DNA from: a virus
DNA length: 38,053 nt
Direction: 5' to 3' (one strand)
Virus record (IMG/VR): IMGVR_UViG_3300029913_000057
Location: 1-38,053 of that record
A program made the translations under genes and the position numbers. The notes beneath the pieces are model-generated. The model was given only the letters and a program-made list of their open reading frames with translations. It made no database searches and was not told the DNA's origin. Numbering within the stretch: the first letter of the stretch is position 1; every line of letters begins with the position of its first letter. Of this stretch, positions 10,358 to 34,738 are shown one piece after another.

Positions 10358-10983
10358 CAATCTCGCGAACTTTTGCGATTGTGGCCGGCGCGATCCTGGC
10401 GCTTGCGCTGGTGCTCGGCGGCTATGAGCTGCTTCAGGAGCATGACGCGCACCTCAAGGCTGAGAGTATGCAGTCTGCGCAGCAGCAGGTAATCACCGCG
10501 GCGCAGAAGTCCATCGACCAGGCCAAGGCCGACCAAGCGCAGACTGCCAACGATCTCAAGGCGCAGCTTGCCGCTATTGCTAATCAGCGCACCATTGTGG
10601 TAACGCCTCAGCAGGCGGCCGTAGTCGCCAACACTACGCCCAACCTTCCGGCGCAGGTCCAAGTCCAGCAGGTTCCGGCTACGGCCACCGCGCCAGCCTC
10701 GCAAGAGCTCGTGATTCCGCAGGCCGACATTCCCGCGTTCCAGGCCTACAAGCTAAATTGCGATGAGAGCAGCGCCAAACTCAACGCCTGCACACTCAAC
10801 GCGGCCAGTGCGGCGGTGATTCAGCAGGGCACGGCCAGCCAGCTCGCCGCGGTGACCAAAGAGCGCGATACCTGGGAGGCTACCGCCAAGGGTGGAACGT
10901 TCTGGAAGCGGTTCAAGCATGATGCAATTCAGATCGGCGTGACGGCCGGCGTCGCCTACGCGGCAGGAAGGCTGAGCAAATGA
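10354..10983 (+). CDS. Spanin-like (Rz-type) membrane-anchored protein
   Basis: 209 residues from ATG 10354 (GGGAG five bases upstream). One N-terminal membrane helix (FAIVAGAILALALVLGGYEL), then a periplasmic coiled coil (AQKSIDQAKADQAQTANDLK), a Pro/Ala/Gln-rich stretch and a second helical part with two Cys (KLNCDESSAKLNAC). The C-terminus has another mildly hydrophobic segment (IGVTAGVAYAAGRL). Position between lysozyme and holin and the topology fit an inner-membrane spanin subunit, which helps fuse inner and outer membranes. It is longer than Rz (about 150) and lacks a nested Rz1-like lipoprotein that I can see. Confidence 0.6.
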   Translation: MTISRTFAIVAGAILALALVLGGYELLQEHDAHLKAESMQSAQQQVITAAQKSIDQAKADQAQTANDLKAQLAAIANQRTIVVTPQQAAVVANTTPNLPAQVQVQQVPATATAPASQELVIPQADIPAFQAYKLNCDESSAKLNACTLNAASAAVIQQGTASQLAAVTKERDTWEATAKGGTFWKRFKHDAIQIGVTAGVAYAAGRLSK

Positions 10984-15841: not shown

Positions 15842-17929
15842 ATGGCAGATGCGAACGACAGTGCGACAGTTGATTTCATGGCGACAGCCCGCAAGCGGTT
15901 TGCGGCGGCCGCCGAGGATGAGCGCGAACTGCGCGTCAAGTTCGTGCAGGATCTCAAACTGGCTTCCCCGGATGGCGATGACCAGTGGGACCCGCAGATC
16001 AAGTTGCAACGCGAGATGGCAGGCCGCCCGGCGATGGCCTTCCCGCGCTGCCATACGTTCGTTCAGCAGGTCAGCAATGAGGCCCGCCAGAATAAGCCTC
16101 AGGTTAAGTTTGCGCCGCGACTGGATGCCGACAAGGACACCGCCGAGGTCTACGAGGGCCTAGCACGGTTCATCCAGTACGAATCCAACGCGCAGATCGC
16201 CTACGAAACAGCCATCGAATACAGCGCGGGCGGTTCATTCGGCTACTACCGCTTCCTGACTGAGTATGCGGAAGACGAAGGCGACGAACTCGACCTCAAG
16301 ATTCTCCCCGTCATGGACCCTATGACAGTCTATGGGATCGTTGTTCCCACCTGCTTCAATCGCAAGCCGCGTTTTGCGTTCGTAGTTGAGGAAATCCCCA
16401 AGGAAGAGTACAGGGCGCTTTACGGCGACAGCGAAATGGCTTCGCTCTCGTGGGATTCCGCTTCGCAGCGCGCAGAGGGGTGGGTCGGTTCCGACTCGGT
16501 GCGTATCGCAGAGTACTGGTGGTGCGAAGAGGTAAAGATCAAGGGAAAGCGCCCAAAAACCAAGGTTTTATTCTGCAAAATCAATGGGCTGGAAGAACTT
16601 CCTGATACGCGCACCGAATGGGCAGGTTCTGAAATACCGATTATCCCGGTTCTTGGCAAGCAGATGATTATTGAGGGCAAGCCCCGTCTGTCCTCAGTAG
16701 TTCGCTCGCAGAAATCCGCTCAGCAGATGCTGAATTACGCAAAATCGCGCGTTGCTGAGACGTTGGCGCAGTCTCCGGTGTCGCCATACATGATCGCCGA
16801 GGGCCAAGACGCTGGATACGAGAAGGAATGGGCGACGATCAATACGGTTCCGCGTCCTAGTGTGCATTTCAAAGTCGTTGATATGGCCGGTCGTCCGCTC
16901 CCTGCACCCACGCGCAACACGTTCGAGCCTCCGATTCAGTCGCTTTCTGAGTTCATCGCCCAGGAAGTGGACGATATGAAGGCCACTACGGGCATCTATG
17001 ACGCATCGCTGGGCGCTAAGGGGAACGAGACTACCGGCAGGGCGATTCAGGCCCGCCAGCAGTCCTCCAACCTTACCACCATGCATTTTCTCGATAACCT
17101 GGAGCGCTCATTCCGGCAGGCGGGCGACATTATCGAGGAGATGATCCCCAAGATTTACGACACCGAGCGCGAAGTGACCATTCTCGGCCAGGACGAGAAA
17201 TCCAAGGTGGTAACCATCAACGCGGAGCACACTGACGAAGCCGGAAAGTCGCATCACTACAAGATCGCCGGGAAGCGCGTGCCGCTGGTGGTCACTATGG
17301 GCCGCGCGTATGACTCGAAGCGGATGGAGACGTTCGATTTTGTACAGAATTTGATTCGCTCCGTGCCGACGATGGTCCCGATTCTCGGCGATTTGATGAT
17401 GAAGAATTCGGACATGGCTGGCGCGGATGAAGCAGCCGAGCGGTTGCACAAGATGCTGCCGGCGCAGTTGCAGGACAATGAAAACGCGCTTCCGCCCCAG
17501 GCGCAGGCCGCCGTTGCGCAGGCTCACCAGCAAATGCAGGCCATGCAGGGTGAACTCGCCAAGCTGACAATGGAGAAGCAGGCCAAGCACCTTGAGCACA
17601 TGGGCAAGATGGAAGAGATTGCGGCCAAGGCTCAGGCCGATATGGCGCTCGAGGACAAGAAGTTGCTGACGGCTATCACTGTCGCGGAGATAAACACCAA
17701 GGCGCAGAACGCGGCCGACCGCGAAGCAGATCGCAGGGCGCTTGAGGCGCAGTTCCACGATCAGGCGCATGATGTAGCAATGCAGGCTCAACAGCAACAG
17801 GCCGCGCAGCAGATGCAGCAACAGCAGGCTGCGGCACAGAGCCAACAGAGTTCACAAGATGCGGCGCAGCAGCAAGAGCAGCAAGTAGCACCGCAGCAAA
17901 CCGCTGACCCGGCGCAAGGGGCGAATTGA
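15842..17929 (+). CDS. Portal protein, P22 type
   Basis: 695 residues, close to P22 gp1 (725). It opens with a helical clip (DFMATARKRFAAAAEDEREL) and carries blocks of the P22 portal family: AFPRCHTFVQQVSNEARQNK, FIQYESNAQIAYETAIEYSA with GGSFGYYR, and NETTGRAIQARQQSSNLTTM. Residues after about 560 are Gln-rich coiled coil, matching the barrel extension of P22 portal. It forms the twelve-fold ring through which DNA enters and leaves. The ribosome site is weak, suggesting coupling to the previous gene. Confidence 0.92.
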   Translation: MADANDSATVDFMATARKRFAAAAEDERELRVKFVQDLKLASPDGDDQWDPQIKLQREMAGRPAMAFPRCHTFVQQVSNEARQNKPQVKFAPRLDADKDTAEVYEGLARFIQYESNAQIAYETAIEYSAGGSFGYYRFLTEYAEDEGDELDLKILPVMDPMTVYGIVVPTCFNRKPRFAFVVEEIPKEEYRALYGDSEMASLSWDSASQRAEGWVGSDSVRIAEYWWCEEVKIKGKRPKTKVLFCKINGLEELPDTRTEWAGSEIPIIPVLGKQMIIEGKPRLSSVVRSQKSAQQMLNYAKSRVAETLAQSPVSPYMIAEGQDAGYEKEWATINTVPRPSVHFKVVDMAGRPLPAPTRNTFEPPIQSLSEFIAQEVDDMKATTGIYDASLGAKGNETTGRAIQARQQSSNLTTMHFLDNLERSFRQAGDIIEEMIPKIYDTEREVTILGQDEKSKVVTINAEHTDEAGKSHHYKIAGKRVPLVVTMGRAYDSKRMETFDFVQNLIRSVPTMVPILGDLMMKNSDMAGADEAAERLHKMLPAQLQDNENALPPQAQAAVAQAHQQMQAMQGELAKLTMEKQAKHLEHMGKMEEIAAKAQADMALEDKKLLTAITVAEINTKAQNAADREADRRALEAQFHDQAHDVAMQAQQQQAAQQMQQQQAAAQSQQSSQDAAQQQEQQVAPQQTADPAQGAN

Positions 17930-18171: not shown

Positions 18172-19137
18172 ATGGCAACAGAGACGCAAGCGGCATCGTC
18201 ACCCGTCGAAGCAACAGACCCATTCAACGGGCAGTCCCCCACGCTCCACGAGTTCAATTCGTACCGTGCGACAGGGGAAGTCCCGGCCAGATTCGCACCA
18301 GCCGAAGACGCGGACCCGGAACCCGCAGATGAGACACCAGCCGAGGGCGAAGAGCCCGAAACCGCACCGGAAACGGCACCGGAAGACGATCAGGAGCCGC
18401 CCGAGGGCATTGGCAACAAGGCCCGCAGGCGATTCGAGAAGTTGCTCGCTGAAAACAAGGCACTCAAGGCAGCACAGCAGGCCAAACCAGACGTTACCCC
18501 GGTCCCGTCTCCCGCGCCGCAAGCCGCCCAGGTTGCCCCGACAAGTCCAGAGCCGACCGTGAACGACACGAAAGATGATGGAACGCTGAAATATGCGGAC
18601 TATGCTGATTTCGTGAAGGCATTGGGCCGGTGGTCAGCCGAGCAAACTCTCCACGAAGCGCATCAGCGCGAAGTTCAGCAGAGGCAAGTCAGCCAGGTAC
18701 AGGAAAACGTCGAAGATGCCCGCAAACGGTACGGCACCGAGTTTGACTCGGTGATCGAGCCCACTGCAGCAACCATTATGGGAGACAAAACCATTCCCAT
18801 GCAGGTCAAGCAGATGCTGTCAGAATCAGACGTGCTTCCAGAGTTGATTTACACGATTGGGACGGACCAGAAAACCATGAAGGAACTGGAACGACTTTCG
18901 CGTGTGAATCCATCGCAGGCGATTCGTTACATCGCAACTCTCGAAGCTGGTATCCGACTTGAACTTGCTGCCGAACCGAACGCTGCCGCTACTCCTGAGC
19001 CGAAGAAAACCGCCGCCCCGAAACCGCCGTCCCCTGTAAATGGGGCGAGTTCCAGGGCCTTTGACGTGAGCGACGAAAGCCTTTCCCCGGACGACTGGGC
19101 GCGTAAGCGCAACCAGCAACTCGCCAGTAGAAGGTAA
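18172..19137 (+). CDS. Scaffolding protein
   Basis: 321 residues between portal and coat, the usual place. The first 100 residues are acidic and Pro-rich, then a long helix (NKARRRFEKLLAENKALKAA), a Pro-rich linker, and a helical core (AEQTLHEAHQREVQQRQVSQ, KTMKELERLSRVNPSQAIRY). The C-terminal part is basic (WARKRNQQLASRR), as in P22 gp8, whose basic end binds coat. It directs prohead assembly and then leaves. Assignment rests on position and composition. Confidence 0.8.
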   Translation: MATETQAASSPVEATDPFNGQSPTLHEFNSYRATGEVPARFAPAEDADPEPADETPAEGEEPETAPETAPEDDQEPPEGIGNKARRRFEKLLAENKALKAAQQAKPDVTPVPSPAPQAAQVAPTSPEPTVNDTKDDGTLKYADYADFVKALGRWSAEQTLHEAHQREVQQRQVSQVQENVEDARKRYGTEFDSVIEPTAATIMGDKTIPMQVKQMLSESDVLPELIYTIGTDQKTMKELERLSRVNPSQAIRYIATLEAGIRLELAAEPNAAATPEPKKTAAPKPPSPVNGASSRAFDVSDESLSPDDWARKRNQQLASRR

Positions 19138-19160: not shown

Positions 19161-20360
19161 ATGGCTAATAGCCTCCTTTCACCGACCATCATTACTCGTG
19201 AAGCACTTCGAATTTTGCACGCCAACCTGAATTTCATTGAGAACTGCGACAAGCAGTATGACAAGCAGTTCGCCAACAGCGGAGCCTCGCCTTCAGGCAA
19301 GATCGGCCCCTCGCTGACCATCCGTATGCCGAACCAGTACACGGTTCGCACCGGCTCGGTCATCAGCGTTCAGGACACCACCGAAACCAGCCAAGTGCTC
19401 ACCGTTTCTACGCAGAAGGGCGTGGACACCAACTTTACCTCCGCAGATCTCTCCCTCACCATCGATGAGTTCAGCGAGCGCTACCTGAAGCCCGCCATGT
19501 CGGTTCTGGCATCGAATATCGAAGCTGATGCATTGAGCATGATGCTGAACGTCTACAACGCCATCGACGACAACGCCAACACGCTCACCTACAAGGACAT
19601 TGCCCTGGGTCGCCGGATGCTCAACCAGAACCTTGCGCCGGATGAGGGCGAGCGGGTAGGCATTCTGACTTCGCAGCATGTGCCCAGCTTCCTCGACGGG
19701 ATCAAGGGACTGTTCAACCCGCAGGAAAGCATTTCGCGTCCGTACCTTACCGGAAAAATCGGCAAGGTGAGCGGGATGAACACCTACGAGAACACGATCA
19801 TCCCCAACTTCCAGAGCGGCACGGCGGCGGCCGCCACCGGCTACACCGCAACATTGGCAAGCGGCAGCGCCACGGCGACACTCGCCGCGGGTTCAGCTAC
19901 ATTCACGGCTGGCGATATCGTCACATTCGCCGGCATTTACGCCGTCCACCCTGAAACCAAGGCCAATCTCGGATACCTGCAGCAGTTCGTGTTCACCGCT
20001 GCCGTAGCCGGGGCCGGCGCGGCCACCATCTCCCCTACTCCGGTAAGCTCTGGAGCCACGCAGAACGTGACCGGCACGCTGACCTCCGGCCTTGCGGTCG
20101 TCAAGGTTGGCGGCGGCGCTTCTGCCCTCTACAACCAGTCGATCCTCTTCCACCCGGAAGCGTTCGCCTTCGTCACCGCCGATCTGATCGACGTATCGAA
20201 GTTCGGCGCATGGGGCGCGCGCGAGGTCATGGACGGCATTTCCATGCGCATCGCTCGGCAGTACGACATCACGAACGACAAAATCCCGTGCAGGATTGAT
20301 GTTTTGTACGGATATCGAACCATCCGTCCCCAGCTTGCTGTGAGAGTTATTGCACAGTAA
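19161..20360 (+). CDS. Major capsid protein, P22 coat family
   Basis: 399 residues, near P22 gp5 (430). AGGAG eight bases before the ATG. The family opening is clear (LLSPTIITREALRILHANLN, then FIENCDKQYDKQFANSG), followed by IGPSLTIRMPNQYTVRTG and FTSADLSLTIDEFSERYLKP. Residues about 220-320 (Gly/Ala/Thr-rich beta) match the position of the inserted I-domain of P22 coat. The end (DITNDKIPCRIDVLYGYRTI) is typical. HK97-fold shell subunit. Confidence 0.93.
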   Translation: MANSLLSPTIITREALRILHANLNFIENCDKQYDKQFANSGASPSGKIGPSLTIRMPNQYTVRTGSVISVQDTTETSQVLTVSTQKGVDTNFTSADLSLTIDEFSERYLKPAMSVLASNIEADALSMMLNVYNAIDDNANTLTYKDIALGRRMLNQNLAPDEGERVGILTSQHVPSFLDGIKGLFNPQESISRPYLTGKIGKVSGMNTYENTIIPNFQSGTAAAATGYTATLASGSATATLAAGSATFTAGDIVTFAGIYAVHPETKANLGYLQQFVFTAAVAGAGAATISPTPVSSGATQNVTGTLTSGLAVVKVGGGASALYNQSILFHPEAFAFVTADLIDVSKFGAWGAREVMDGISMRIARQYDITNDKIPCRIDVLYGYRTIRPQLAVRVIAQ

Positions 20361-21984: not shown

Positions 21985-22154
21985 CAAGCAAGGAAATCCA
22001 ACTCATCGCACCGACCGATCTCAGCACAAACGCTTGGCTCAAGATAATCGCGCTTCAGTTGTCGATTCTGATTGAGGCGCTGGCATCGGAAGCTCCACAG
22101 GTTCAGCCGATCCCCGAGAAGCGCGGTCCCGGCCGTCCCCGAAAGGTCGCATAA
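21981..22154 (+). CDS. 57-residue protein with an AT-hook-like end
   Basis: MTSKEIQLIAPTDLSTNAWL, KIIALQLSILIEALASEAPQ, then EKRGPGRPRKVA. The RGPGRPRK end matches the AT-hook core (GRP flanked by basic residues), which binds the minor groove of AT-rich DNA. It overlaps both neighbours (ATGA, TAATG). It could be a packaged or DNA-tethering peptide; the function is inferred from the motif only. Confidence 0.6.
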   Translation: MTSKEIQLIAPTDLSTNAWLKIIALQLSILIEALASEAPQVQPIPEKRGPGRPRKVA

Positions 22155-23005
22155 TGGCGCTGATTCTCACGGACCAATCCGGCAACCAGTATTCGCTATC
22201 GGTGGACGCGGCGAGCGGATCGCTGCTGACCAATCCGGTATCCAACCTGACGCCGACAACCGCCGACAACTCCATCTTCTTCACGACGCTTTCGCTCATC
22301 ACTGCGGCGATGCGCCTGATCAATGTGGTAGCCTCTGGCGAGCTGCCCACCAGCGACGAGGCAAACGATGCGCTGATGGCGTTTCAGTGGATGGTGGACT
22401 CGTGGAACGCAGACAGCCTATCCATCTTCACCATGAGCGCCTCAGACTATCCGCTGTCGCTCGGCAAGCAAGCGTACACTTTGGGGCCGGGTGGAGATTT
22501 CAACGCAACGCGCCCCTCGCAGATCGTGGGAATGAGCGCGATCCTGCTCAATAATCCGACGAACCCAGTTGAGGTTCCGATTGACCTGTACACCATGACC
22601 CAGTGGCAGACGCAGGTTCCGGTAAAGAACGTCCCGGGCACATTCCCGCTGGTCTGCTATGACGATGGCGGCGCACCGCTACGCACGCTGTCTTTCTGGC
22701 CCATCCCCAACTCACAGCCAAACAATGTGCGCATTTACGCCTGGCAGTCGCTCGTCTGGCCGGCCACGCTGCAAACCATCCTCAATTTCCCGCCGGGGTA
22801 TGCGCGGGCCTTCGTCTACAATCTCGCCCTGGAGTTGGCTCCGCAATTCGGAGCGCAGATCCACCCCGCAGTTGCGAAAATAGCTGTGGAGTCGCTTGCA
22901 ATGGTCAAGACGCAGAATGCGCCTGATTTGAACCTGATTTCTGACCTTCAAACCAACCCTGCCGGTTACCAATGGAAAGCGGATATGTTCGGGATACCGT
23001 ACTAA
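22154..23005 (+). CDS. P22 gp4-like tail accessory protein with an N-terminal beta module
   Basis: 283 residues. From residue about 45 it follows the gp4-like plan: SLITAAMRLINVVASGELPT, DEANDALMAFQWMVDSWNAD, then PLSLGKQAYTLGPGGDFNAT, and a PPGYARAFVYNLALELAPQF block. Such proteins form the ring joined to the portal that keeps DNA in the head. P22 gp4 is shorter (166); the first 32 residues here are an added module (LTDQSGNQYSLSVDAASGSL) also found inside the gp10-like protein. Confidence 0.82.
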   Translation: MALILTDQSGNQYSLSVDAASGSLLTNPVSNLTPTTADNSIFFTTLSLITAAMRLINVVASGELPTSDEANDALMAFQWMVDSWNADSLSIFTMSASDYPLSLGKQAYTLGPGGDFNATRPSQIVGMSAILLNNPTNPVEVPIDLYTMTQWQTQVPVKNVPGTFPLVCYDDGGAPLRTLSFWPIPNSQPNNVRIYAWQSLVWPATLQTILNFPPGYARAFVYNLALELAPQFGAQIHPAVAKIAVESLAMVKTQNAPDLNLISDLQTNPAGYQWKADMFGIPY

Positions 23006-23483: not shown

Positions 23484-25154
23484 ATGGCGAGATTTGGCCT
23501 CATCGGCTCCTCGTACCAGAGCCAGTCGACTATCGCGGACTGCCAGCGGACGATGAACTGGTACCAGGAAAACATCGAAAGCCAGATGGCGGCGTCTTCG
23601 ATGGCGCTCTATCCTACGCCCGGACTGGCAGCATGGGGAACAATCGACAAGCCCGTACGCGGTGAGATCGAGATTAACGGGCGCATGTTTGCCGTGGGGG
23701 GCGCGAAGTTCTACGAGATGAATGCTGCAGGTTCCCCGACGATGATCGACACCGTGGGTAATAATCTTCAGCCGGTCACGATGGCGACGAATGGCACGCT
23801 CGGCAATCAAGTGCTCATCTGCTCCGATGGTAAGCTATTCATCTACACGCTGGACGCAATCGGGAACATCCCCAAAGGTACGTTCACGCAGGTAAGCTCT
23901 TTGCAGGGAATTCCCGCATCCGTGGTGTTTTGCCATAGTTATTTCGTGGCTTTGCTGGCCGGAACGAACAAGTTTCAGGTGTCGAACCTGCTCGATGGTT
24001 CCACGTGGAATGCGCTCGGCGTCCAGCAGAACGAGACGTTTCCAGAGAATATCGCCTCCATTGTCTCCGCATACAACTTTCTCTTTGTTCTAGGGCAGGA
24101 TGGTCACTCGCAGGTCTACTACAACTCCGTAGCCAGCCAGTACACGCCGTTCAGCCCCATTTCAGGAGCCTACATGGAGGAAGGCTGCGGAGCGCCACTA
24201 TCGCCTGTCGTGATGGATAACACTGTTTTCTGGCTCGGCGGACGAGATGGCATGGGCGATATTGCTTGGCGCGCGAACGGTTACACCCCAACGCGGGTAT
24301 CAAATTTCGCCGTTGAGACTGCTTGGGCATCATATCCGTTGAAGGGTTCGGACGCGGTGGGATACACGTACCGCGACCAGGGCCACACGTTTTGGGTTCT
24401 GCGCTTCCCTTCGGCCAATGGAGGCGCTGGCGCTACTTGGGTTTATGACGCATCTAGCCAGCAATGGCACGAGCGCGGATTCTGGTCGCAGACTGGGCCT
24501 ACCGGATACAGCGCACACCTTTCAACCTGCCATGTATTCGCGTTCGGAAAGCATCTTGTAGGGGACTGGAATTCAGGCAATATTTATTCGATGGATATTG
24601 CCAACCTTACGGACAATGGTACCGCGATTCGCCGATGGCGGCGCTCTCCTCACATCTCCGCTGAGCGCGAGCGCGTGTTCCTCGACCGTTTGCAGATCGA
24701 TTTAGAGGTAGGCTTGGGCCCAGAACCACCGCTCATTGGCCTGACGCCGCCGATGGAGCAAACTGGCGTCTCAGAGGCGGGTAAACTGGTAATTGATGAC
24801 CAAAGTGGAGGTCGATATGCGCTATCGGTGGATAATTCCGATGGATCGCTCTCTGCAGCATCACTTACGCCAGCAGGGCAACAGCCTCCCTACTATCGCG
24901 GTCCGCAGTTGTCGGTTAGCATCTCCCGCGACGGGTCAAAGACGTTCGGACCGGAGCACTTGTTGGACTGTGGACAGGATGGTGAAACTAGGAAACGAGT
25001 CATCCTGCGGCGGCTTGGTCAGGCGCGAGACTTCGTATTCGACATTGTAGCCACGGACCCAGTACCTTGGCGCATAATCGACGGTTATATTGAAGGAACA
25101 GGCTTCCAGCAGCCAATGCAGCGGCTACAGAAGCAGATGGCACAGGTGCAATGA
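23484..25154 (+). CDS. P22 gp10-like tail needle-ring protein (packaged DNA stabilisation)
   Basis: 556 residues, slightly longer than P22 gp10 (472). The family start is clear (FGLIGSSYQSQSTIADCQRT, MNWYQENIESQ) and so is the end (GETRKRVILRRLGQARDFVF). The middle is repetitive beta, as in its propeller. It forms the six-fold hub below gp4 that closes the portal and holds tail parts. About 70 extra residues (from about 415) hold the DQSG module (LVIDDQSGGRYALSVDNSDG) seen in the gp4-like protein. Confidence 0.85.
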   Translation: MARFGLIGSSYQSQSTIADCQRTMNWYQENIESQMAASSMALYPTPGLAAWGTIDKPVRGEIEINGRMFAVGGAKFYEMNAAGSPTMIDTVGNNLQPVTMATNGTLGNQVLICSDGKLFIYTLDAIGNIPKGTFTQVSSLQGIPASVVFCHSYFVALLAGTNKFQVSNLLDGSTWNALGVQQNETFPENIASIVSAYNFLFVLGQDGHSQVYYNSVASQYTPFSPISGAYMEEGCGAPLSPVVMDNTVFWLGGRDGMGDIAWRANGYTPTRVSNFAVETAWASYPLKGSDAVGYTYRDQGHTFWVLRFPSANGGAGATWVYDASSQQWHERGFWSQTGPTGYSAHLSTCHVFAFGKHLVGDWNSGNIYSMDIANLTDNGTAIRRWRRSPHISAERERVFLDRLQIDLEVGLGPEPPLIGLTPPMEQTGVSEAGKLVIDDQSGGRYALSVDNSDGSLSAASLTPAGQQPPYYRGPQLSVSISRDGSKTFGPEHLLDCGQDGETRKRVILRRLGQARDFVFDIVATDPVPWRIIDGYIEGTGFQQPMQRLQKQMAQVQ

Positions 25155-25345
25155 TGGCTCAGACGATCAATGTTCCCTCCCCGGTATCCGCAGCGGTTCC
25201 GTTCGTTCACTCGCAGGCGAGTCAGATTCCTTCCCCTCCTAGCGGGCTCACTGAGTTCGGATACAAACACCTTTCAGACACTCAGACGGCGATTGCGGCC
25301 CTTGTCGCACAGGTTGCCGCACTAAACGCAAAGGCAGGACTATGA
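25151..25345 (+). CDS. 64-residue tail-region protein with a C-terminal helix
   Basis: MMAQTINVPSPVSAAVPFVH, a Pro/Ser head, then a helix (TQTAIAALVAQVAALNAKAG) with heptad spacing. It overlaps the gp10-like stop and the fibre start (ATGA at both). The layout (extended head plus short coiled coil) could be a tail-fibre linker or chaperone. Not recognised. Confidence 0.6.
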   Translation: MMAQTINVPSPVSAAVPFVHSQASQIPSPPSGLTEFGYKHLSDTQTAIAALVAQVAALNAKAGL

Positions 25346-27480
25346 AAAACCGTATTATCACATTTCTCGGAACGCTGGCACTATTCCTGAGCTCTGTCCC
25401 TGCTGTATCTCAGAATCCTGTGGTGCCTTTCCGGTCGCCGCGCGCCACGTTCACCACTCAGACAGGCCAGCCACTCTCGGGCGGATGCATCTACACCTAC
25501 CAAGGCGGCACAACCACTCAGCAGGCGACCTACACCGATTACACAGGCGGCACAGCCAACACGAACCCCGTCATTCTCGATACTACCGGCAGCGCTGTGA
25601 TGTGGCTTGGCGCGAACTCCTACAAGTTTGTCGCCTACAGCGCTGGTGGGTATCACTGCTCATCGGGAAGCCTCCAGTGGACGGTTGATCAGATTCCCGG
25701 CGATGCGTTCCTGAACGGGACCATAAGCGGCGCGACAATCACCAACCCTACAATCACCGGCGGCACGGATTCAGGCACAACAATTTCCAGTGCGGTAATT
25801 ACAGGATCGAGCATCAATAGTTCTGCAATCGGCTCCTCTGTGCCAGCATCAGGGTCGTTTACCAGCGTAGCCTCAGCGCTCCAGGCCGTGACCTTTAGTT
25901 CGACTCCCGTCTTTGCTGCTAGCAGTTACGGTTATTTCACTATGACGCTGAGCGGAAATGTCGCATCCAGCACAATCACCGGAGCAACTACGGGCCAGAC
26001 GATAGCTTTTCAGATTTGCCAGAACGGGACCGGTCAGGTGGTTAACAGCCAAACTACCGGATTTACGTTTGCGTGGCCTTCTACGTACCCGAATGCACCC
26101 ACGATAAACTCTGCGCTGAATGCTTGCACTGTGGTGACTGCTTTCTATAATGGCTCCAACTGGGTCACGATCTCGCAGAGCCAGCAGGTGATTCTTGGCA
26201 ATCTCGATACTCTAACGTTCACGTCTACGCCGATATTTCCAGCAACAAACTACTCGAATTTCCTGCTCACGCTCACAGGGAACGCGACAAGTAGCACAAT
26301 TGCAGGCGGAACCATTGGACAGGTTTCCACCTTCGACATATGCGAAGACTCGACCGGGGGGCGAACCTTCGTGTGGCCTTCGAATGTCCTAAATTCTCCC
26401 CAGTTTGTGACTAACGCGGGAGTGTGCAACTCGCTGATTACGGTTTACAACGGAACAAACTGGAACACGGTTGCAAGCTCCTCGACAAGCTCTACTCCGC
26501 TGACCGGGAACCTGGATATCATCGGTTTCACTTCTGCCCCGTCATTTAACGCGGCGAGCTACAGCGCTTTCCAGATGACACTAGGGGGTAATGTCACTTC
26601 CAGCTCGATCATCGGCGGATCAACTGGACAGTTGATTTCCATCGCACTGATACAGGGGTCGTCTACAACTACGGCTCCAGCGAGCGCTCCGACAGTCACA
26701 ACCTCTACCACTGGAGGCAGTCTCCCGGCTACGACAACCTATTACGCAAAATGCAGTTATCTGTTCGGGGTGACAGAGAGCCTGCCGAGCGCGGAGGCGT
26801 ATCAGGCGACAGGCTCAGGGTCTACGAACTCAATCACTTGGACCTGCCCAGCGTATGCGGGCGTGACGCAGTACAAGTTCTATCTGGGGGCGGGGACGGG
26901 TGCAGAAGCCTATTATTATCTGACAACCAGCACTTCATTTGTGCAGCAAAATATACCCAGCAGTTACACTCCGGGCTCGCCGTACGGATCAAGCATATAC
27001 ACCGTAGCGTGGCCTTCCAACCTGATAAACCCGCCACTGATGGCTACTGGTGTAGGCGCTACGACCGCTCTTACTGCCGTGTACAACGGTTCATATTGGG
27101 TAACGGTAGGATCAAGTGGTGCAGGTAGCAGCAATAGCGGCCCGGTGTGCGTGGGCGGTAATTGCTATCGGCAGAACCCTGATGGAAGCTATGACGAGTG
27201 GGGATCAACTCCCACGTTTGGAGGGCAGAATGGCGGTAGCTTCAGCATGGCTTTCCCTCATGCATTCACCACGCTTTCGAGTATTCAGGTAGTTTTTAGT
27301 CCGAACGGATGCGATGGCGGCAATGCGGCTACCTGCGCCGCGAATCCAAGCGGCAGCCCGAACAACGTGTACACGTGTGGAATTCTTACTCCAAGCGTAA
27401 GCGCGCCTACCGGCTTCTATTCGTCCTCGAATACGGTAACCGCCGGAGCGTCATGTTCCTGGATGGCGAAGGGGTATTGA
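25342..27480 (+). CDS. Tail-fibre protein with signal peptide, three tandem domains and an inserted Fn3-like domain
   Basis: 712 residues. Residues 1-24 look like a Sec signal (MKNR, hydrophobic core ITFLGTLALFLSSV, then AVSQ). Residues 25-180 are a beta-rich opening (FRSPRATFTTQTGQPLSGGC). Three repeats of about 95 residues follow, near 182, 287 and 391, each with a FTSTPxFxAxxYSxFxMTLxGN start and an AWPS...AVYNGSxWxTV end. The third is split by an Fn3/Ig-like insert (about 441-551). The C-terminus (NPDGSYDEWGSTPTFGGQNG, AFPHAFTTLSSIQVVFSPNG) is the familiar receptor-binding end of tail fibres, here with extra Cys. Made just before GNAT and ejection genes. A signal peptide on a virion protein is unusual. 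Confidence 0.75.
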   Translation: MKNRIITFLGTLALFLSSVPAVSQNPVVPFRSPRATFTTQTGQPLSGGCIYTYQGGTTTQQATYTDYTGGTANTNPVILDTTGSAVMWLGANSYKFVAYSAGGYHCSSGSLQWTVDQIPGDAFLNGTISGATITNPTITGGTDSGTTISSAVITGSSINSSAIGSSVPASGSFTSVASALQAVTFSSTPVFAASSYGYFTMTLSGNVASSTITGATTGQTIAFQICQNGTGQVVNSQTTGFTFAWPSTYPNAPTINSALNACTVVTAFYNGSNWVTISQSQQVILGNLDTLTFTSTPIFPATNYSNFLLTLTGNATSSTIAGGTIGQVSTFDICEDSTGGRTFVWPSNVLNSPQFVTNAGVCNSLITVYNGTNWNTVASSSTSSTPLTGNLDIIGFTSAPSFNAASYSAFQMTLGGNVTSSSIIGGSTGQLISIALIQGSSTTTAPASAPTVTTSTTGGSLPATTTYYAKCSYLFGVTESLPSAEAYQATGSGSTNSITWTCPAYAGVTQYKFYLGAGTGAEAYYYLTTSTSFVQQNIPSSYTPGSPYGSSIYTVAWPSNLINPPLMATGVGATTALTAVYNGSYWVTVGSSGAGSSNSGPVCVGGNCYRQNPDGSYDEWGSTPTFGGQNGGSFSMAFPHAFTTLSSIQVVFSPNGCDGGNAATCAANPSGSPNNVYTCGILTPSVSAPTGFYSSSNTVTAGASCSWMAKGY

Positions 27481-27935
27481 TGGCCGATATCCGCAAGGTA
27501 AGCTACGCGGACATTCTCGGAGCTCCGAACGCAAAGGAGCTATTTGCCGAGTACGAGTCCGAGTGCGCGAACCCTGAGCTAGCTCCAATCAATCCACAGG
27601 CCGATCTTTACGCTTTAATGGAGGCATCGGGAGGCTTGCAAGCGTTTGGGGTTTACGAGGGAGACGCGCTAATCGGATTCCTTACTGTGCTGGTTTGGAC
27701 GATTCCGCACTACGGTAAAAATATCGGTTCCAATGCTGATATTTTCCTCGCACCGGGGCATAGGATGAGCGGAACAGGCGCAAGAATGATAGATCTCGCA
27801 GAGGAATACGCGAAAAGCAAGGGAGGCGCCTGCTTTCAATGGACCGTCCCCGCGGGAAGCCGGTTTGCGAGGTTGCTGGCTCTCAACGCGGGACGGTACC
27901 GCCGCTCCAATTCTGTCTACCTGAGGACGTTATGA
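27480..27935 (+). CDS. GNAT-family acetyltransferase-like protein
   Basis: 151 residues from ATG 27480 (AAGGGG five bases upstream; TGATG overlap with the fibre stop). ECANPELAPINPQADLYALM, then GVYEGDALIGFLTVLVWTIP (GNAT strands 2-4), IFLAPGHRMSGTGARMIDLA (acetyl-CoA loop in the place of R/Q-x-x-G-x-G/A), then a final CFQWTVPAG strand. The R-M-S-G-T-G-A core is good. Substrate unknown; a virion or host protein amino group is possible. A longer frame begins inside the fibre gene and is rejected. Confidence 0.75.
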   Translation: MADIRKVSYADILGAPNAKELFAEYESECANPELAPINPQADLYALMEASGGLQAFGVYEGDALIGFLTVLVWTIPHYGKNIGSNADIFLAPGHRMSGTGARMIDLAEEYAKSKGGACFQWTVPAGSRFARLLALNAGRYRRSNSVYLRTL

Positions 27936-28360
27936 GTCTCGCTCTGATCGACAAAACGCTGCCGCCTACAACTCCAGAAATTATGGAGAAAATTGCGCTG
28001 GTGGAGGCGAGAATAAGGCCACACGAGAATACGCTCCAGGTGAAGATGGAGCATTCTCTCCATGCGGGAATGTATGCCCGTACCTGCCGTCTGGCCGCGT
28101 ATCAGGTCATCACCAGCGTTCTCATCAAGATCCCCACGTTGCTTATCGTCAACGGGGATTGCATCGTTCTGGCGGGCGAAGAATGGAAAGAGCTGAAGGG
28201 ATACAATGTTCTCAACGCTCCCTCCGGACGCAAACAGATTTATGTGACACGTGCGGAAACGGAAATTACGATGATTTTCCCGAGCAACGCGAAAATGGTT
28301 GAAGAAGCAGAGGACGAATTCAGCGACGAATCCGCCAATTTGCTCAGTAGGAGGTCGTAA
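27932..28360 (+). CDS. Conserved tail-region protein of unknown function
   Basis: 142 residues from ATG 27932 (GAGG five bases upstream, ATGA overlap). MSLALIDKTLPPTTPEIMEK, then KMEHSLHAGMYARTCRLAAY with a strand-rich middle (SVLIKIPTLLIVNGDCIVLA), ending in a Glu/Asp-rich tail. I recall similar proteins before ejection genes in P22-like phages. Probably a small virion or assembly factor. Confidence 0.68.
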   Translation: MSLALIDKTLPPTTPEIMEKIALVEARIRPHENTLQVKMEHSLHAGMYARTCRLAAYQVITSVLIKIPTLLIVNGDCIVLAGEEWKELKGYNVLNAPSGRKQIYVTRAETEITMIFPSNAKMVEEAEDEFSDESANLLSRRS

Positions 28361-29385
28361 TGTCGGGTGTGGCTACTGGTACGGCGCTAATGATCGGCGG
28401 GGGACTTGCGGCGGGCGGCAGTGTCGCCAGCGGCCTCATTGGAGCAAATGCTGCGGAGAATGCGGCGTCCACCCAAGCAACAGCAGCCGAGAAGAATGCG
28501 CAGATGCAGGGGTCTCTCGGCCAGGAAGGTCTTACCCTCGAAAACCAGCAGAACCAGCAGAACCAGGCCAATCTCCAGCCTTATTTGCAGACCGGCGACA
28601 ATGCGAACGCGACCCTGCAATATCTGATGGGCATGGGTGGCGAGAATCCAGGCGGCGGGGGTGCAACGACAGGTGCAGGACAAACGCTCTCGATCCCCGG
28701 AATCTCTGGATCTGTAGCCGTTCCCGGCGTCACTACCACAACCGGAACAGCAGCGACGAATCTGGGATCGTATGGCGAGCTGATGAAGGGATACGGGGGA
28801 GGCGCTTTTCAAGCTCCCACTGCGGATCAGGCCCGGCAGACTCCCGGATATCAATTCGGCTTACAGCAGGGAGAGGGCGCGCAGCAAGCCAGCGCGGCGG
28901 CGAATGGAACACTTCTCACTGGGGGGACGCAGGCGGCGCTCAACCAATACGGCCAGAACTATGCGGACACGAATTACAACAACGTCTACAACCAGGCTCT
29001 CCAGACCTACGGCACGAATTACAACAATTGGGCGAATCAACAAACCAGCGAATACAACAAGCTGGCGGGTATGGCTGGCATGGGTCAGACAGCGGCGAAC
29101 ACCATGAACAGCAACGGCTTGCAGTCTACCGGGCAGATGGAAAACACGCTCACCAATACCGGGCAGCAGGTCGGCCAGCAGAACACCAATGCCGCGGCTG
29201 CGACCGCTTCCGGTTACGTTGGGGCCGGAAATGCATACGGCGGCATGGCCAGCGGGGTGGGCAATAGCTTAAGTCAGATGATGATGCTCAAATCGCTATA
29301 CGGTGCATCGGGAACAAGCGGCAGCGGAAGCAGCGGTACGCAGTCAGATATTAACAACATGTTCAACTTGGATTACATGGGGTAG
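28360..29385 (+). CDS. Ejection (internal virion) protein, gp7-like
   Basis: 341 residues. A glycine-rich hydrophobic head (MIGGGLAAGGSVASGLIGAN) is followed by Gln/Asn/Ala-rich sequence. The PTADQARQTPGYQFGLQQGE, GTLLTGGTQAALNQYGQNYA and VYNQALQTYGTNYNN blocks are usual in DNA-transfer proteins of P22-like phages. These proteins leave the head before the DNA and form a conduit through the envelope. Confidence 0.8.
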   Translation: MSGVATGTALMIGGGLAAGGSVASGLIGANAAENAASTQATAAEKNAQMQGSLGQEGLTLENQQNQQNQANLQPYLQTGDNANATLQYLMGMGGENPGGGGATTGAGQTLSIPGISGSVAVPGVTTTTGTAATNLGSYGELMKGYGGGAFQAPTADQARQTPGYQFGLQQGEGAQQASAAANGTLLTGGTQAALNQYGQNYADTNYNNVYNQALQTYGTNYNNWANQQTSEYNKLAGMAGMGQTAANTMNSNGLQSTGQMENTLTNTGQQVGQQNTNAAAATASGYVGAGNAYGGMASGVGNSLSQMMMLKSLYGASGTSGSGSSGTQSDINNMFNLDYMG

Positions 29386-29388
29386 ACG

Positions 29389-31005
29389 ATGGGCAGCATT
29401 CCGCTTTTAGCTCTTGACGTTCGACAACCCGAGCAGCCTCCAAACCTGATTAGCCAGTACGGGCAGCTTATGGCAATCAAGGGGCAGCAGGCGCAACAGG
29501 CACAACAGCAGGCCATGGCCCCGCTCCAGCAGCAGCAAGCCCAGCAGCAAGTGCAGAGCGGCGCAATGGAGCTACAGCAGCGCCAGCAGGACCTAAAGGA
29601 CCAGCAGGGAATTTCCAACTGGTTCATGCATATCGACCCGAAAGACCCGGACGCCTTCAACCCCACTACGGTTGGGAAAACCCTCGCCTCACAGGGGGTT
29701 TCCGGCAAGGGGATCATGGCGGCGCAGGGTCAGCTTTTGCAGCACCAGCAGACAGCCGCAACGCTGACCAAGGACCAACTCGCAAACCAGCAGCAGATGA
29801 ACGATAGCCTCTACAGCGGAATCAATGGGATTATCGGCGTCACAGACCCTCAGCAGCGGGCGCAGGCTATCACCGCGCTTCTTCCGCAAGCGGTCCAGTC
29901 GAAAGCCTTACAGCCACAGCAAGCCCAGCAACTCGCGCAGAATCCCGCAGCGGTCACGGATGACCAGCTCAAGGCGCTCCAGCACGGGCTCGGCATCAGT
30001 TCAGCATTTCTTGGGTCGGTTGCGCGGATGCAGACGGCGCAGACCGGCGCGCAGACGGCCGCAATCAAGGCCCCCGGCGAACAGGCCGCATCGGATTCGC
30101 TGGTGCTCAGGAATGCGGCGCAACAGCTTGCGGCGTCTCCAGACCAGGCGACCTACCAGGCCGCGCTCGGCGAACTGCCGATGAAGATTGCGAAGAACTT
30201 CCCCGCGCAGTTCGACAAAAACGCGGTACTTCAGGCTGGGATGCCTCCAGATGAACAGATGAAGTATGATCCCGCAACTCAAGCTAACCTGGCCGCTGTA
30301 AAGGCGGGAGCGGAAGCGAAGGCGAGACAGCCGTTTGAAATGGCTCTTGCACGGCAAAGACAGGCGCTCTCCCAGGGCGATCCAAACGCGGCGGCGCAGC
30401 TTTTGCTCGACGGCGATGCGACCTTATCAGAATTGAAGGCGCGCGGATCGACACCTCAGTTTATCGCGCAGACATTGCAGGCTGCGCACCAAATGAGCGG
30501 TGGAAAATACAACGCTCAGAGCGCAGAATCTCAATTCAGTGTCGCTAAGTCGCCTCAACAGGTGCAATTCTTTGGATCAGCAAAGTCCCTTACTGACCCA
30601 GGCGGAACGCTCGACCAGTTGGCAGAATCTGCGAAAAAGATTCCGCAAAACCAAATTCCCAAATTCAATTCAATTGAGGATTGGGCGAGGGAAGCAGCCG
30701 GAAGCGGTCCTCTCGCCGAATACGCTTCGCGCGTTCTTGGGGTTGCCGATGATTATTCAAAGGTGATGGGCGGGGGTGTCGGTAGCGATCAATCTAGGCT
30801 GCAGGCTGCAAATCTCGTATCGGCAAAGCTCAGCAAAGAGGGAAGAGAAGGGGCGCTCAACGGAATCCGTGGATCTGTAAATTCGCAAATCAAGTCCCGC
30901 ATTGGCAATAACGCTATCCTCCAGAGAATGTACGGGGATGCTGGATCGGGTTCGCCCACATCTGGAAATGACCCGTTTGCGCAGTTCGGCGGAAAGGCTC
31001 ACTAA
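29389..31005 (+). CDS. Ejection (internal virion) protein, Gln-rich
   Basis: 538 residues, soluble and helical. Residues about 30-85 are almost pure Gln/Ala coiled coil (QQAQQAQQQAMAPLQQQQAQ), followed by long helices and a domain with W, G and P in its last third. It starts three bases after the gp7-like stop and overlaps the next gene (TAATG), which fits a three-gene ejection cassette. Low-complexity sequence makes homology weak; position and composition support the call. Confidence 0.7.
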   Translation: MGSIPLLALDVRQPEQPPNLISQYGQLMAIKGQQAQQAQQQAMAPLQQQQAQQQVQSGAMELQQRQQDLKDQQGISNWFMHIDPKDPDAFNPTTVGKTLASQGVSGKGIMAAQGQLLQHQQTAATLTKDQLANQQQMNDSLYSGINGIIGVTDPQQRAQAITALLPQAVQSKALQPQQAQQLAQNPAAVTDDQLKALQHGLGISSAFLGSVARMQTAQTGAQTAAIKAPGEQAASDSLVLRNAAQQLAASPDQATYQAALGELPMKIAKNFPAQFDKNAVLQAGMPPDEQMKYDPATQANLAAVKAGAEAKARQPFEMALARQRQALSQGDPNAAAQLLLDGDATLSELKARGSTPQFIAQTLQAAHQMSGGKYNAQSAESQFSVAKSPQQVQFFGSAKSLTDPGGTLDQLAESAKKIPQNQIPKFNSIEDWAREAAGSGPLAEYASRVLGVADDYSKVMGGGVGSDQSRLQAANLVSAKLSKEGREGALNGIRGSVNSQIKSRIGNNAILQRMYGDAGSGSPTSGNDPFAQFGGKAH

Positions 31006-32660
31006 TGGCAACCGCTCCCCAGGTTTACACCGGAATCACAGCGAGTCCGAGGGTCACTATTGACCCCTCACGCGAAGGCGTTTCTTCGCCTCCTGATGGA
31101 GGCAACGTATCCAACGTCAACAACCCGCCATCGGAAGCAGGCGCGGCCACCATCACGATGCTATCGCCGGATGGACGAACCGGGGATATCCCGATTTCAA
31201 ACATGCAGGCGGCTAAACAGGCAGGATTCAAAGTCGCTGTGCAAATGAAATCTCCCGAGGGCGTGAATGGATATGTTCCCGCCGAAAATGTCCATGATGC
31301 AGCCGCGAAGGGCTTCAAGATGGTTCCGATCGAAGTCCCAGATGCGGCAAAGGTGAGCTACTGGGATGCGCTCACAAACCCAGTAGGGTCAGGCGGCGCG
31401 CAGCAGGGTATTATAGGCGGCGTACAGCAAATTGGCGGTCAGGCTATCAAAGCACTAGCGCAGCCCGTCCTACACCCCATCGACACCGCTGAGGGGATCT
31501 ATAACACCGTGCGCCATCCCATTCAGACTGCTCAGGGAATTGGCCAGCAAGTGCAAGCTGATTACCAACAGGGCGGTGTTCCTCTCGCGGCTGAGAATCT
31601 TGCCGGCCAGGCGATTGGCGCTTATGAGGGCGGTAGACTAGCCGCACCGGTAGCCAATGCTGCCCTGAATGCGGTCCCCTCTGGATTGGGGCGCGCTGTT
31701 CTACTCGGCAAGAATCCAGAAGCGGCCTATGAGAGTGCAATGAAGCCGGGAACCACTATCAGCCAAGCGGATCGCGCGGCAATGGTGCGGACTGGGCTCC
31801 AGAATGCCATTCCGGTATCTAAGGCGGGAGTGGAAAAACTTGGCAACTTGATCGACGACCTAAATAGCGAAATCAAGGGAACCATCGCGCAAGATCCAAC
31901 ACGGCCAATTGATCCGAATGCGGTAGCGACACGCATCCAGCCCACGCTCGACAGATTCGGTAATCAAGTTGTCGCACAGCCGGACTTGAACGCTATCGAA
32001 GCGACACGACAGCAGTTCCTTGCGGAGCGCGGTGCCCGGCCTGGAACGCCTGGAACAGGTCCACGGCCTACGGGGCTGCTCGATGCCCAGGGGCGCCCTA
32101 TCATGTCACAGGGAATTCCAGCAAAGCCTCCCCAGCCAGCGCCTCCGATGAACGCTGCAGATGCGCAGGCGATGAAGCAGGGAACCTATGGGGTTCTCAA
32201 GGGTAAGTATGGAGAGCAGGGAAGCGCAACGGTCGAGGCTCAAAAGGCTTTGGCGCGTGGTCTGAAAGAGGAGATTGCAACGCAATTTCCAGAAATCAGC
32301 AACCTTAACGCAGCCGAGGGCAAACTGTTGGACTTGCAGCCAGTTCTTGAGCGCGCAGTGAATCGTATCTCGAATCATCAGGTTATCGGGATCGGAACGC
32401 CGGTAGCTGGGGCTGCAGCGACAGCGGTTACCGGAAGCACTACGCTCGGAAAAGTGGCAATGGTCGCAAAGGCTGTGCTAGACAACCCCAACATCAAATC
32501 TCGGTTAGCTATTGCGGTGAGCAAGGGCGGCAAGATTCCTTACGCTCAAGCTCTCGCTCGCGTTCAATCCTATGCAACATCTCTTGGATCAATATCTTCC
32601 GTTGGGCAGGAGAATTACCCCGGCGACAATCCCAATCAACCAATACCTGCCCAACAATAA
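31005..32660 (+). CDS. Ejection-type protein with twin small repeats
   Basis: 551 residues. Residues 48-107 hold two copies of a roughly 30-residue unit (MLSPDGRTGDIPISNMQAAK, then MKSPEGVNGYVPAENVHDAA), a module I know from phage and bacterial proteins that ends in A-x-x-x-G-F/G-K. Next come Gly-rich amphipathic segments (GGAQQGIIGGVQQIGGQAIK, AGAAATAVTGSTTLGKVAMV) and long helices. It is the third member of the ejection cassette and likely gp16/gp20-like in role. No lytic transglycosylase motif is seen. Confidence 0.68.
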   Translation: MATAPQVYTGITASPRVTIDPSREGVSSPPDGGNVSNVNNPPSEAGAATITMLSPDGRTGDIPISNMQAAKQAGFKVAVQMKSPEGVNGYVPAENVHDAAAKGFKMVPIEVPDAAKVSYWDALTNPVGSGGAQQGIIGGVQQIGGQAIKALAQPVLHPIDTAEGIYNTVRHPIQTAQGIGQQVQADYQQGGVPLAAENLAGQAIGAYEGGRLAAPVANAALNAVPSGLGRAVLLGKNPEAAYESAMKPGTTISQADRAAMVRTGLQNAIPVSKAGVEKLGNLIDDLNSEIKGTIAQDPTRPIDPNAVATRIQPTLDRFGNQVVAQPDLNAIEATRQQFLAERGARPGTPGTGPRPTGLLDAQGRPIMSQGIPAKPPQPAPPMNAADAQAMKQGTYGVLKGKYGEQGSATVEAQKALARGLKEEIATQFPEISNLNAAEGKLLDLQPVLERAVNRISNHQVIGIGTPVAGAAATAVTGSTTLGKVAMVAKAVLDNPNIKSRLAIAVSKGGKIPYAQALARVQSYATSLGSISSVGQENYPGDNPNQPIPAQQ

Positions 32661-32686
32661 CGGCGAGGTAAGCAAAGGCTAATCCA

Positions 32687-34738
32687 ATGACAAGACTCTC
32701 AAGCATGACGAAATTATACGCCACTATCGCTTTCGCATTCATGGCGGTTCTTGCTTCCGCGCAGACGAACCGTTTCCCGCCGATCAACCTCTACACCGGT
32801 GATCCGACAGGTGTAGCCTGCACTATCCCGAATAGTTTAGTGCAAAGCACTACAACTGAGGGGATTTACGGCTGTACCATCGGGGGAGTTTATGCTCCTC
32901 TCCCTCCAGATGCCACCAAACTCCCGCTCACCGGAGGAACGATCAACGGGAACCTCAACGTCACAGGCAATGCTACCCTTCCAAACATCGTAGGCCCAAC
33001 AACGCTCACCGGCCTGCTGAACGGAACAGATGCAACTTTCTCAGACACCGTCGCGGCTACAACTGAGACTTCATGCGTCAACAATAGGACCCTGAACCCT
33101 ACTTGCCCTACTTATGGAGCTGACCCGACAGGAGTAGCTGACTCCACTTCTGCCATAAATACCGCATGCTCCGTGGCATATTATGGGAATTTACAAGTCA
33201 AACTTCCAGCGGGAATCTACAAAGTCTCTGGACAACTCACGAACTGCGGATCTCTGCCTATAGGTTTTTTTGGGAGTGGCGTAGCGAACACAATTATCAA
33301 AAACTACAGCACCACGGCCTATATTTTCCCAGTCACCTATAGTATTTTAGGCGGCGGGACCACAACCACAACTGCCGCGCAATTTAAGGATTTTCAGATT
33401 GTTCAAGCGCCCGGTGTGACGCCCACTGCGGGTGGTGCGTTCCTAATCGGATCTGGTGTTACTGGCTATTACACAGTTGGGTTACGAATCGAAGATGTAA
33501 CAATCAACAACATGTGGGGTGGCCTTTATTTTCAGCAGGGACAGATTTCCAACTGGGTCAATAATGTATATGTAGTTTGGTCAACCAGCGGGGGGAATGG
33601 CTGCATTTATTACAATAGTGCCGTTCCAAGTGGGGATGATCATATCAACGATGTAGAGTGCAACGGGGCAAATACAGGAGTAACCATCGCCCAGTCTGAC
33701 ACGACAGAATACTCTAACCTGAAAACCAATGGATCGGGGGTCGTGTTCACAGGTAGCGCAATGACAGCCAATGTTCGATTTATTGATCCTTCGATTGAGA
33801 ATGCTCCCGCCTGCGGGTTCGATTTTGGTGTTGGTACACCACCTACTGAAACACAGATATTTGGCGGAGGCGTTGGAAATACAATTCACGCCCTTTGCAA
33901 CGAATCAAATGCGACTAACCTTATGTATTACTTCAACAATTACAACAATAGCGGAGATGGATCTACTAGCGGCGGAAGTCAGGTGGCGGGAAAGATTTTC
34001 ACTTCTGAAACTTTCAATACCCACTCTACTGTGGATTGCTCAACAGCAGTTCCCTTTGTGTGTGGAGCAAACAACGCTGAGAGTTATACGCAGCTTTATG
34101 GCTACTCTAATGAAAGCCCCTCCGCTTTGACTTTCGGTCCAGTATCTGGCGCTATTGCTAACCAAAGTCAGGGATGGATAGGAATCGAACCTGACGGAGC
34201 GTATTCGGGACGATTGGCATGGTTTGTACCGAAGGTAGGTAATGGAACACATACCGCGAGTGATGCAATTAGGGCATGCACTGTTTTAGGGGAACCCTCA
34301 AACAGTCAGGTATACATGCGATGCAATGGAGGAATGTTCATTGGTCCTGATGCGTCGAGCGCCGATCCGGGTGTAAATAATCTTTCCGTATATGGGAACA
34401 TCACAACTCAAGGAAGTTACGGAAACATGAACGGGCTGATTATTCCCTCTACGGTCAAAGGTAGCACAGGTACAGCTACGGGATACATCGAGATCGCGCA
34501 ATTGTGCACGACTGGGAGTATCACACCATCTGGAAGCGCAGGAGGTACGGCATCTGGAACGTGCACTCTGGCAACTTCGGCCACGGGCCAAACGGGTATC
34601 GCAGCGGCAAACGATGGAACCGTACAGGCTGGGTTGATATCGCAAGTGTCCGTCAATGGGACAACGGCGACTGTGACGATCACTACAGTGATAGCGGGAT
34701 CGCCTTTAGCTAAAGCCTACAACGTCAAAGTATTTTAA
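32687..34738 (+). CDS. Tailspike-like beta-helix protein with signal peptide
   Basis: 683 residues (or 677 from a second ATG at 32705). The N-terminus (LYATIAFAFMAVLASAQ) is a textbook Sec signal with an A-S-A cleavage site. Next is TGGTINGNLNVTGNATLPNI, typical of fibre shafts, then the pectate-lyase-type opening YGADPTGVADSTSAINTACS and LPAGIYKVSGQL. A right-handed beta-helix follows (SNLKTNGSG, GVGNTIHALCNES), ending with TGTATGYIEIAQLCTTG and a beta C-terminal. It has many Cys pairs, as in exported proteins. It probably binds or cuts surface polysaccharide. Export before assembly is unexpected for a tail protein. Confidence 0.75.
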   Translation: MTRLSSMTKLYATIAFAFMAVLASAQTNRFPPINLYTGDPTGVACTIPNSLVQSTTTEGIYGCTIGGVYAPLPPDATKLPLTGGTINGNLNVTGNATLPNIVGPTTLTGLLNGTDATFSDTVAATTETSCVNNRTLNPTCPTYGADPTGVADSTSAINTACSVAYYGNLQVKLPAGIYKVSGQLTNCGSLPIGFFGSGVANTIIKNYSTTAYIFPVTYSILGGGTTTTTAAQFKDFQIVQAPGVTPTAGGAFLIGSGVTGYYTVGLRIEDVTINNMWGGLYFQQGQISNWVNNVYVVWSTSGGNGCIYYNSAVPSGDDHINDVECNGANTGVTIAQSDTTEYSNLKTNGSGVVFTGSAMTANVRFIDPSIENAPACGFDFGVGTPPTETQIFGGGVGNTIHALCNESNATNLMYYFNNYNNSGDGSTSGGSQVAGKIFTSETFNTHSTVDCSTAVPFVCGANNAESYTQLYGYSNESPSALTFGPVSGAIANQSQGWIGIEPDGAYSGRLAWFVPKVGNGTHTASDAIRACTVLGEPSNSQVYMRCNGGMFIGPDASSADPGVNNLSVYGNITTQGSYGNMNGLIIPSTVKGSTGTATGYIEIAQLCTTGSITPSGSAGGTASGTCTLATSATGQTGIAAANDGTVQAGLISQVSVNGTTATVTITTVIAGSPLAKAYNVKVF

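Follow-up and report, generated by a model that had tools for sequence, protein, structure and literature searches.

Organization of the late operon

The sequence analysed, referred to below as the window, was the whole of the 38,053-base IMG/VR virus contig IMGVR_UViG_3300029913_000057. Its late operon was of the P22 type (Table 1), with genes for the terminase (a match to phrog_3717), portal, scaffold, coat, gp4-like adaptor, gp10-like head closure protein (Hc3) and fibre, followed on the 3' side of the fibre by genes for a GNAT-like protein, a small protein, the gp7-like, gp20-like and gp16-like proteins and a spike. The same synteny of the P22-type tail region was seen in relatives. A candidate gene for an Rz-like spanin lay in a region separate from this operon. 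A glycosyltransferase-like gene, several relatives of the window phage having one as well, was present between the coat and gp4-like genes (21280-21984), and a 64-residue open reading frame (25151-25345) lay between the Hc3 and fibre genes. In four related loci (L029, L031, L150 and L051) the latter gap held genes for proteins of 190-280 residues, each a possible tail needle.

Table 1. Positions of features in the window and, for the third protein family, in related loci
Feature	Position	Strand	Basis	Remarks
Rz-like i-spanin candidate	10354..10983	+	phrog_1152, E 0.0074	N-terminal signal anchor; lysis region
Portal protein, P22 type	15842..17929	+	PF16510, E 3e-124	No signal peptide
Scaffolding protein	18172..19137	+	phrog_8865, E 9.6e-21	No signal peptide
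Major coat protein	19161..20360	+	Position and homology to coat genes of relatives	No signal peptide
gp4-like head-tail adaptor	22154..23005	+	phrog_637 and phrog_12985	No signal peptide
gp10-like head closure protein (Hc3)	23484..25154	+	phrog_578, E 5.6e-86	No signal peptide
Tail fibre, 712 aa	25342..27480	+	ORF and translation	Between gp10-like (Hc3) and gp7-like genes
Fibre predicted signal peptide, aa 1-23	25342..25410	+	Heuristic score; 25 homologues compared	MKNRIITFLGTLALFLSSVPAVS
Fibre head-binding (virion-docking) domain, about aa 30-117	25429..25692	+	Profile, single-sequence and AF2 fold matches	Cys49/Cys106 pair
Fibre modules, about aa 180-505	25879..26856	+	Cys conservation	Cys pairs 226/262, 334/362 and 471/502
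gp7-like DNA ejection protein	28360..29385	+	phrog_598, E 2.4e-13	No signal peptide; 0 Cys
gp20-like and gp16-like ejection genes	29389-31005, 31005-32660	+	Position and synteny	No signal peptide; 0 Cys
Tailspike-like protein, 683 aa	32687..34738	+	ORF	gp9 position, downstream of gp16-like gene
Spike predicted signal peptide, aa 1-25	32687..32761	+	Scoring and alignment of relatives	MTRLSSMTKLYATIAFAFMAVLASA
Conserved mature spike N-terminus (QTNRFPPINLY.GDPTG..C...C)	32762..32893	+	62-66% identity to L036 and L004	2 invariant Cys
Third signal-peptide family	L039:5828-6850, L005:5553-6578, L038:4950-5984, L034:5773-6750, L040:5641-6708

Homologues of the fibre were found in 15 viral contigs (52-74% identical) and in two Acidobacteriota genomes (60-61% identical), one of them from a soil isolate, Acidicapsa dinghuensis 4GSKX (L039; Terriglobales), the fibre of which has QVAVSP as its predicted mature N-terminus. 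Among 397 genomes of the order Terriglobales, the portal protein nearest to that of the window was that of genome G198 (55% identical), and the phage module of this genome also encoded a fibre and spike-like proteins with signal peptides. Thus, the host of the window phage is most likely a bacterium of the Terriglobales, an order of abundant soil bacteria for which few phages have been cultured. Within the Acidicapsa prophage, the match to the portal (L170, G001:C10:664434-666353) ran across one TAG codon.

Signal peptides of the fibre and spike

The coordinates, frames and starts assigned to the fibre and spike genes in the initial annotation were correct, and the Sec-type signal peptides reported there were again recognized in both proteins from a hydrophobic core preceded by a basic n-region and followed by an AxA-like end. 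In the fibre, the predicted signal peptide was followed directly by QNPVVPF, with predicted cleavage between AVS and Q and a mature start at Q24, while in the spike it was followed by QTNRFPP, with predicted cleavage between ASA and Q and a mature start at Q26. A ribosome-binding-like stretch, AAGGCAGG, was located immediately 5' of the fibre ATG. The spike gene contained a second in-frame ATG (position 32705), use of which would leave the signal peptide intact. Export by the Tat pathway was rejected for the window proteins, neither of which had the twin arginine of the S/T-R-R-x-F-L-K motif when read by eye; RR occurred in some signal peptides of relatives, again by eye, without the F-L-K part.

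Signal peptides were scored with a home-made rule for n-, h- and c-regions, the false-call rate of which on internal start codons of the same loci was 2.1% (86/4104). The rule called a signal peptide in 25 of the 26 homologous fibres, and reading by eye recognized one in all 26; this set includes the near-identical loci L006/L007/L010, L017-L019 and L146/L151 and comprises 22 distinct docking domains. Signal peptides were likewise called in 11 of 12 spikes, the one miss being due to a wrong start, and in all 11 proteins encoded in the slot after the coat gene, as opposed to none of 208 core morphogenesis proteins. The glycosyltransferase-like gene, with weak false calls in five of its seven copies, was excluded from the 208. 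The genomes were split between host-facing proteins with a signal peptide and portal, coat, scaffold, adaptor and ejection proteins without one.

Tests of conservation are stronger evidence than the scorer. Identity in the signal peptide region averaged 30-35% between pairs of fibres with mature parts 41-68% identical, and over the 26 fibres it was about 30%, as opposed to 40-84% in the mature domain, yet every fibre retained the basic start and hydrophobic core and usually small residues at -3 and -1 and Q at +1. Single members departed from the -3/-1 rule, with M at -3 in L147, L at -3 in L008 and L017, and an unsure site in L146. Retention of the three-part design in sequence that is near saturation points to selection on signal function. 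As to the question raised by the initial annotation, the signal was kept across the related phages, cleavage site included.

A scan of the 397 Terriglobales-order genomes with the mature domain only, which for this reason was not biased towards signal peptides, gave matches in eight genomes, and all eight matching proteins had one. None of 14 named phages from other hosts (i.e., Rhodoferax, Xanthomonas, Vibrio, Thalassomonas, Shewanella, Pseudoalteromonas and Pseudanabaena phages as well as uncultured podoviruses) had a signal peptide on this protein, and its docking domain began within 2-16 residues of the Met. Similarly, 79 of the best 80 docking-domain matches in IMG/VR were without a signal peptide, and the sole exception (L077) was from a contig whose genes for Hc3, gp7 and the fibre are those of the present phage group. 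A protein with the head-binding domain but without a signal peptide was noted in another Acidobacteriota genome (L157, G572:C402), which indicates that the trait is not phylum-wide. On a tree of docking domains, rows with a signal peptide fell in approximately four places, four changes were needed and no bootstrap tree had a single origin; in an AU test, a single origin was not rejected (p 0.077).

Head-binding domain of the fibre

Searches of PHROG and Pfam with the fibre gave no match. Whole-protein tblastn against 50,697 phage records was equally negative, as was a search with the repeat module of the fibre. The mature N-terminus, however, matched the head-binding domain of the Pam1 tailspike (PDB 7eeq) with an E value of 5.9e-13 in a profile search and 5.6e-4 in a single-sequence search. 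An AF2 model of this domain alone (pLDDT 82, from an alignment of 43 rows) matched Pan3 9vyg with a Z of 9.6 and P22 1lkt with a Z of 8.2 (rmsd 2.1 A over 81 residues), and the list of fold matches was headed by the head-binding domains of Pan3, P22 and Sf6, although a Z near 8 is modest when taken alone. The AF2 model of the full fibre (pLDDT 42) was not used. Judged from sequence and predicted fold, the mature N-terminus of the fibre is a P22/Pam1-type tailspike head-binding domain, and thus the fibre appears designed for docking to the tail of a podovirus. Since this domain lies directly behind the signal peptide, the signal for export is joined immediately to the virion-docking domain. The suggestion that the gene had been captured from host surface genes found no support, because this domain is of the phage tailspike type and because only 8 of 397 genomes of the host order matched, 7 of the 8 beside phage-like genes. 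It is simpler to suppose that a phage adhesin was fused to a host-like signal peptide. Of the eight, one was a lone gene among ordinary host genes (L147:10128-11858, G104:C7) that encodes a signal peptide and head-binding domain and may be either a prophage remnant or a domesticated adhesin.

Cysteine pairs

The high Cys content ascribed to both proteins in the initial annotation was borne out, with 14 Cys in the 712 residues of the fibre and 16 in the 683 residues of the spike. Among 16 aligned fibres, Cys49/106 and Cys226/262 were invariant, Cys471/502 was near-invariant, Cys603/608 was lost together in three sequences, and Cys334/362 was retained as a pair in 14 and lost as a pair in the two others (Fisher p 0.008, a value that overstates independence because the counts include related sequences). 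At least two Cys were present in the docking domain of 18 of 22 proteins with a signal peptide compared with 1 of 86 without, and the same reservation applies to these related sequences; the most distant docking domains with a signal peptide (L146, L147, L149 and L151) lacked the Cys pair. The N-termini of spikes contained two invariant Cys. Conservation of Cys in pairs fits disulfides and hence folding outside the reducing cytoplasm; as read from the alignments, the invariant and co-lost pairs indicate folding in an oxidising compartment. Cys was absent from all 46 gp7-like, gp20-like and gp16-like ejection proteins of the group.

Spike and third protein family

The spike had no sequence match in Pfam, PHROG or PDB. 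Thus, of the domain layout proposed earlier, the tail-anchor domain of the fibre was substantiated while the beta-helix of the spike found no counterpart in these databases. The protein was called a tailspike because of its gp9 position and because relatives shared the conserved N-terminus but differed in their C-termini. The first 69 or so residues were common to the spikes of L036 and L004 and the remainder was different, and this mature N-terminal segment is a candidate virion anchor. In relatives the gp9 slot encoded proteins of approximately 980-1140 residues with a signal peptide and a conserved N-terminus (QNTTTFGN...CG..NCVYYQLP), again with differing C-termini, which included a GDSL-like hydrolase in L038 (PF13472, E 8.7e-5, under the Pfam cut-off) and unrelated ends in L039 and L034.

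A third family of proteins with signal peptides (approximately 240-345 residues) was encoded directly 3' of the coat gene in relatives; the window was without one. The longer members contained four invariant Cys, and an N-terminal stretch of the family resembled tail protein phrog_1101 (E 1.1e-8).

Proposed route of assembly and alternatives

Export and cleavage of the fibre and spike are strongly suggested by their sequences. We propose, with a probability of roughly 0.55, that both proteins are Sec-exported, cleaved and disulfide-bonded and that they dock on the particle at lysis. According to this proposal, the fibre and tailspike, as the host-binding parts of the virion, would be made with Sec signal peptides, would cross the inner membrane and would be cut by host signal peptidase before Gln (A-x-A/S, then Q), after which the mature proteins would fold with disulfide bonds in the oxidising periplasm. 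Portal, coat, scaffold, head-tail adaptors and ejection proteins would assemble in the cytoplasm, and opening of the envelope by the lysis system would allow the two pools to mix and the head-binding domains to attach to a completed tail hub. When and where docking takes place is what we infer by analogy. In P22 the spikes are the last part to join the particle. It counts against the proposal that spikes of the P22 type ordinarily reach their folded, trimeric state in the cytoplasm, since here a 700-residue trimer would have to fold in the periplasm. A precedent for late joining is that P22 spikes reportedly add to spike-less heads in vitro (Israel et al. 1967, in the reference list of PMC2989905). 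The odds are about even that such a split assembly, in which all host-binding proteins (i.e., fibre, tailspikes and the coat-adjacent protein, taken to be associated with the capsid or tail) are exported, cleaved, disulfide-bonded and added at lysis, is a trait of Terriglobales podophages in general.

Of the three options offered in the initial annotation (i.e., a virion anchor, export by an unusual route or capture from the host), export was thus best supported, given the conserved signal function, the retained cleavage site and the Cys pairs. It is unlikely, by comparison, that the proteins remain periplasmic, or stay on the outside of infected or lysogenic cells, and act mainly off the virion, with few or none of them on virions. 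Signal peptides and Cys pairs do fit a stable extracytoplasmic protein, as might be used to block superinfection or to trim surface glycans at release, and both the hydrolase-like domains of some spikes (the GDSL of L038) and the isolated fibre-like gene of L147 would suit such a role. Against this, the head-binding domain is conserved, the genes lie where tail genes are standard in late operons of the P22 type, their C-terminal swaps are typical of virion receptor-binding proteins and no other host-binding protein for the virion was evident within the window.

The hydrophobic segment might instead remain uncleaved as an anchor, either in the membrane near assembling virions or inside the tail hub. 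Such a segment was always present in the group, and with the docking domain right behind it a buried or membrane-held extension is conceivable. An anchor, however, would have no need of small residues at -3 and -1 or of Gln at +1 and would leave the disulfide-like Cys pairs of the mature part unexplained, and homologous docking domains of other phages are without any such extension. This part of the initial annotation is therefore less likely than export and is, on balance, improbable.

Dual targeting, with one part of the protein exported and another part, the product of leaky export or of an internal start, built into virions from the cytoplasm, was considered more doubtful still. In the window fibre, in-frame GTG codons did follow closely behind the site at which cleavage is predicted, but the matching codons in L035 and L017 were GTC and ATC, which are not starts, no ribosome-binding site was evident before the GTG codons and no ATG was present between the signal peptide and the domain. 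An internal start after the fibre signal peptide was accordingly rejected as a candidate. Finally, although the scorer was simple and had approximately 2% false calls, chance hydrophobic N-termini, wrong starts or captured host surface genes were largely refuted and are very improbable in view of conservation over 26 fibres, the spikes and one further protein family, of controls that were clean, and of a docking domain of phage type with few matches in host-order genomes.

Implications and comparison with known systems

Tailed phages are taught to assemble wholly within the cytoplasm. If the proposed export and late docking are correct, part of a virion matures in another compartment and joins the rest at lysis, and disulfide-stabilised adhesins are available to phages. 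The presence outside the cytoplasm, before lysis, of sticky and perhaps enzymatic spikes could then shape superinfection and exit. Signal-tagged adhesins may also provide a genome-readable marker for phages of Terriglobales. In the open-licence literature, a scope that makes the negative result weak evidence, no description was found of virion adhesins with signal peptides or of signal peptides in phages of Acidobacteriota, and the exported phage proteins that it did describe belonged to lysis.

The docking fold, P22-type portal and late gene order of the window phage are common to the system of P22 gp9 (PDB 1lkt/2vky/8u10), a cytoplasmic protein without a signal peptide. The fibre differs from gp9 in having a signal peptide before the domain and an added Cys pair within it. 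The adhesins of the window phage would be a set of the P22 type that matures by an altered route. P22-like phages have a conserved N-terminus with exchangeable C-termini (PMC2629481), and the same pattern was seen here. By sequence, the nearest solved relatives of the docking domain are the tailspikes of cyanopodophages Pam1 and Pan3 (7eeq, 9vyg/9vyh), in which, unlike in the fibre, the domain begins a few residues after the Met with no signal peptide. The domain is also shared with Rhodoferax phage P26218, Xanthomonas phage PBR31, podovirus ctNMl277 and podophages of Vibrio, Shewanella and Thalassomonas, being 45-63% identical between these phages and an Acidobacteriota member, and in ctNMl277 the fibre gene follows soon after that for a stabilisation protein, as in the window. 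The fibres of those podophages, in contrast, have no signal peptide and about half the Cys content (0.92% compared with 1.86% in the present group). Exported lysis proteins, such as SAR endolysins and Rz/Rz1 spanins, also use the host export system, and esterase gp40 of PBR31 bears a signal peptide (PMC10975493). These proteins, however, are thought to act in lysis, whereas the fibre and spike described here are proposed to be parts of the virion.
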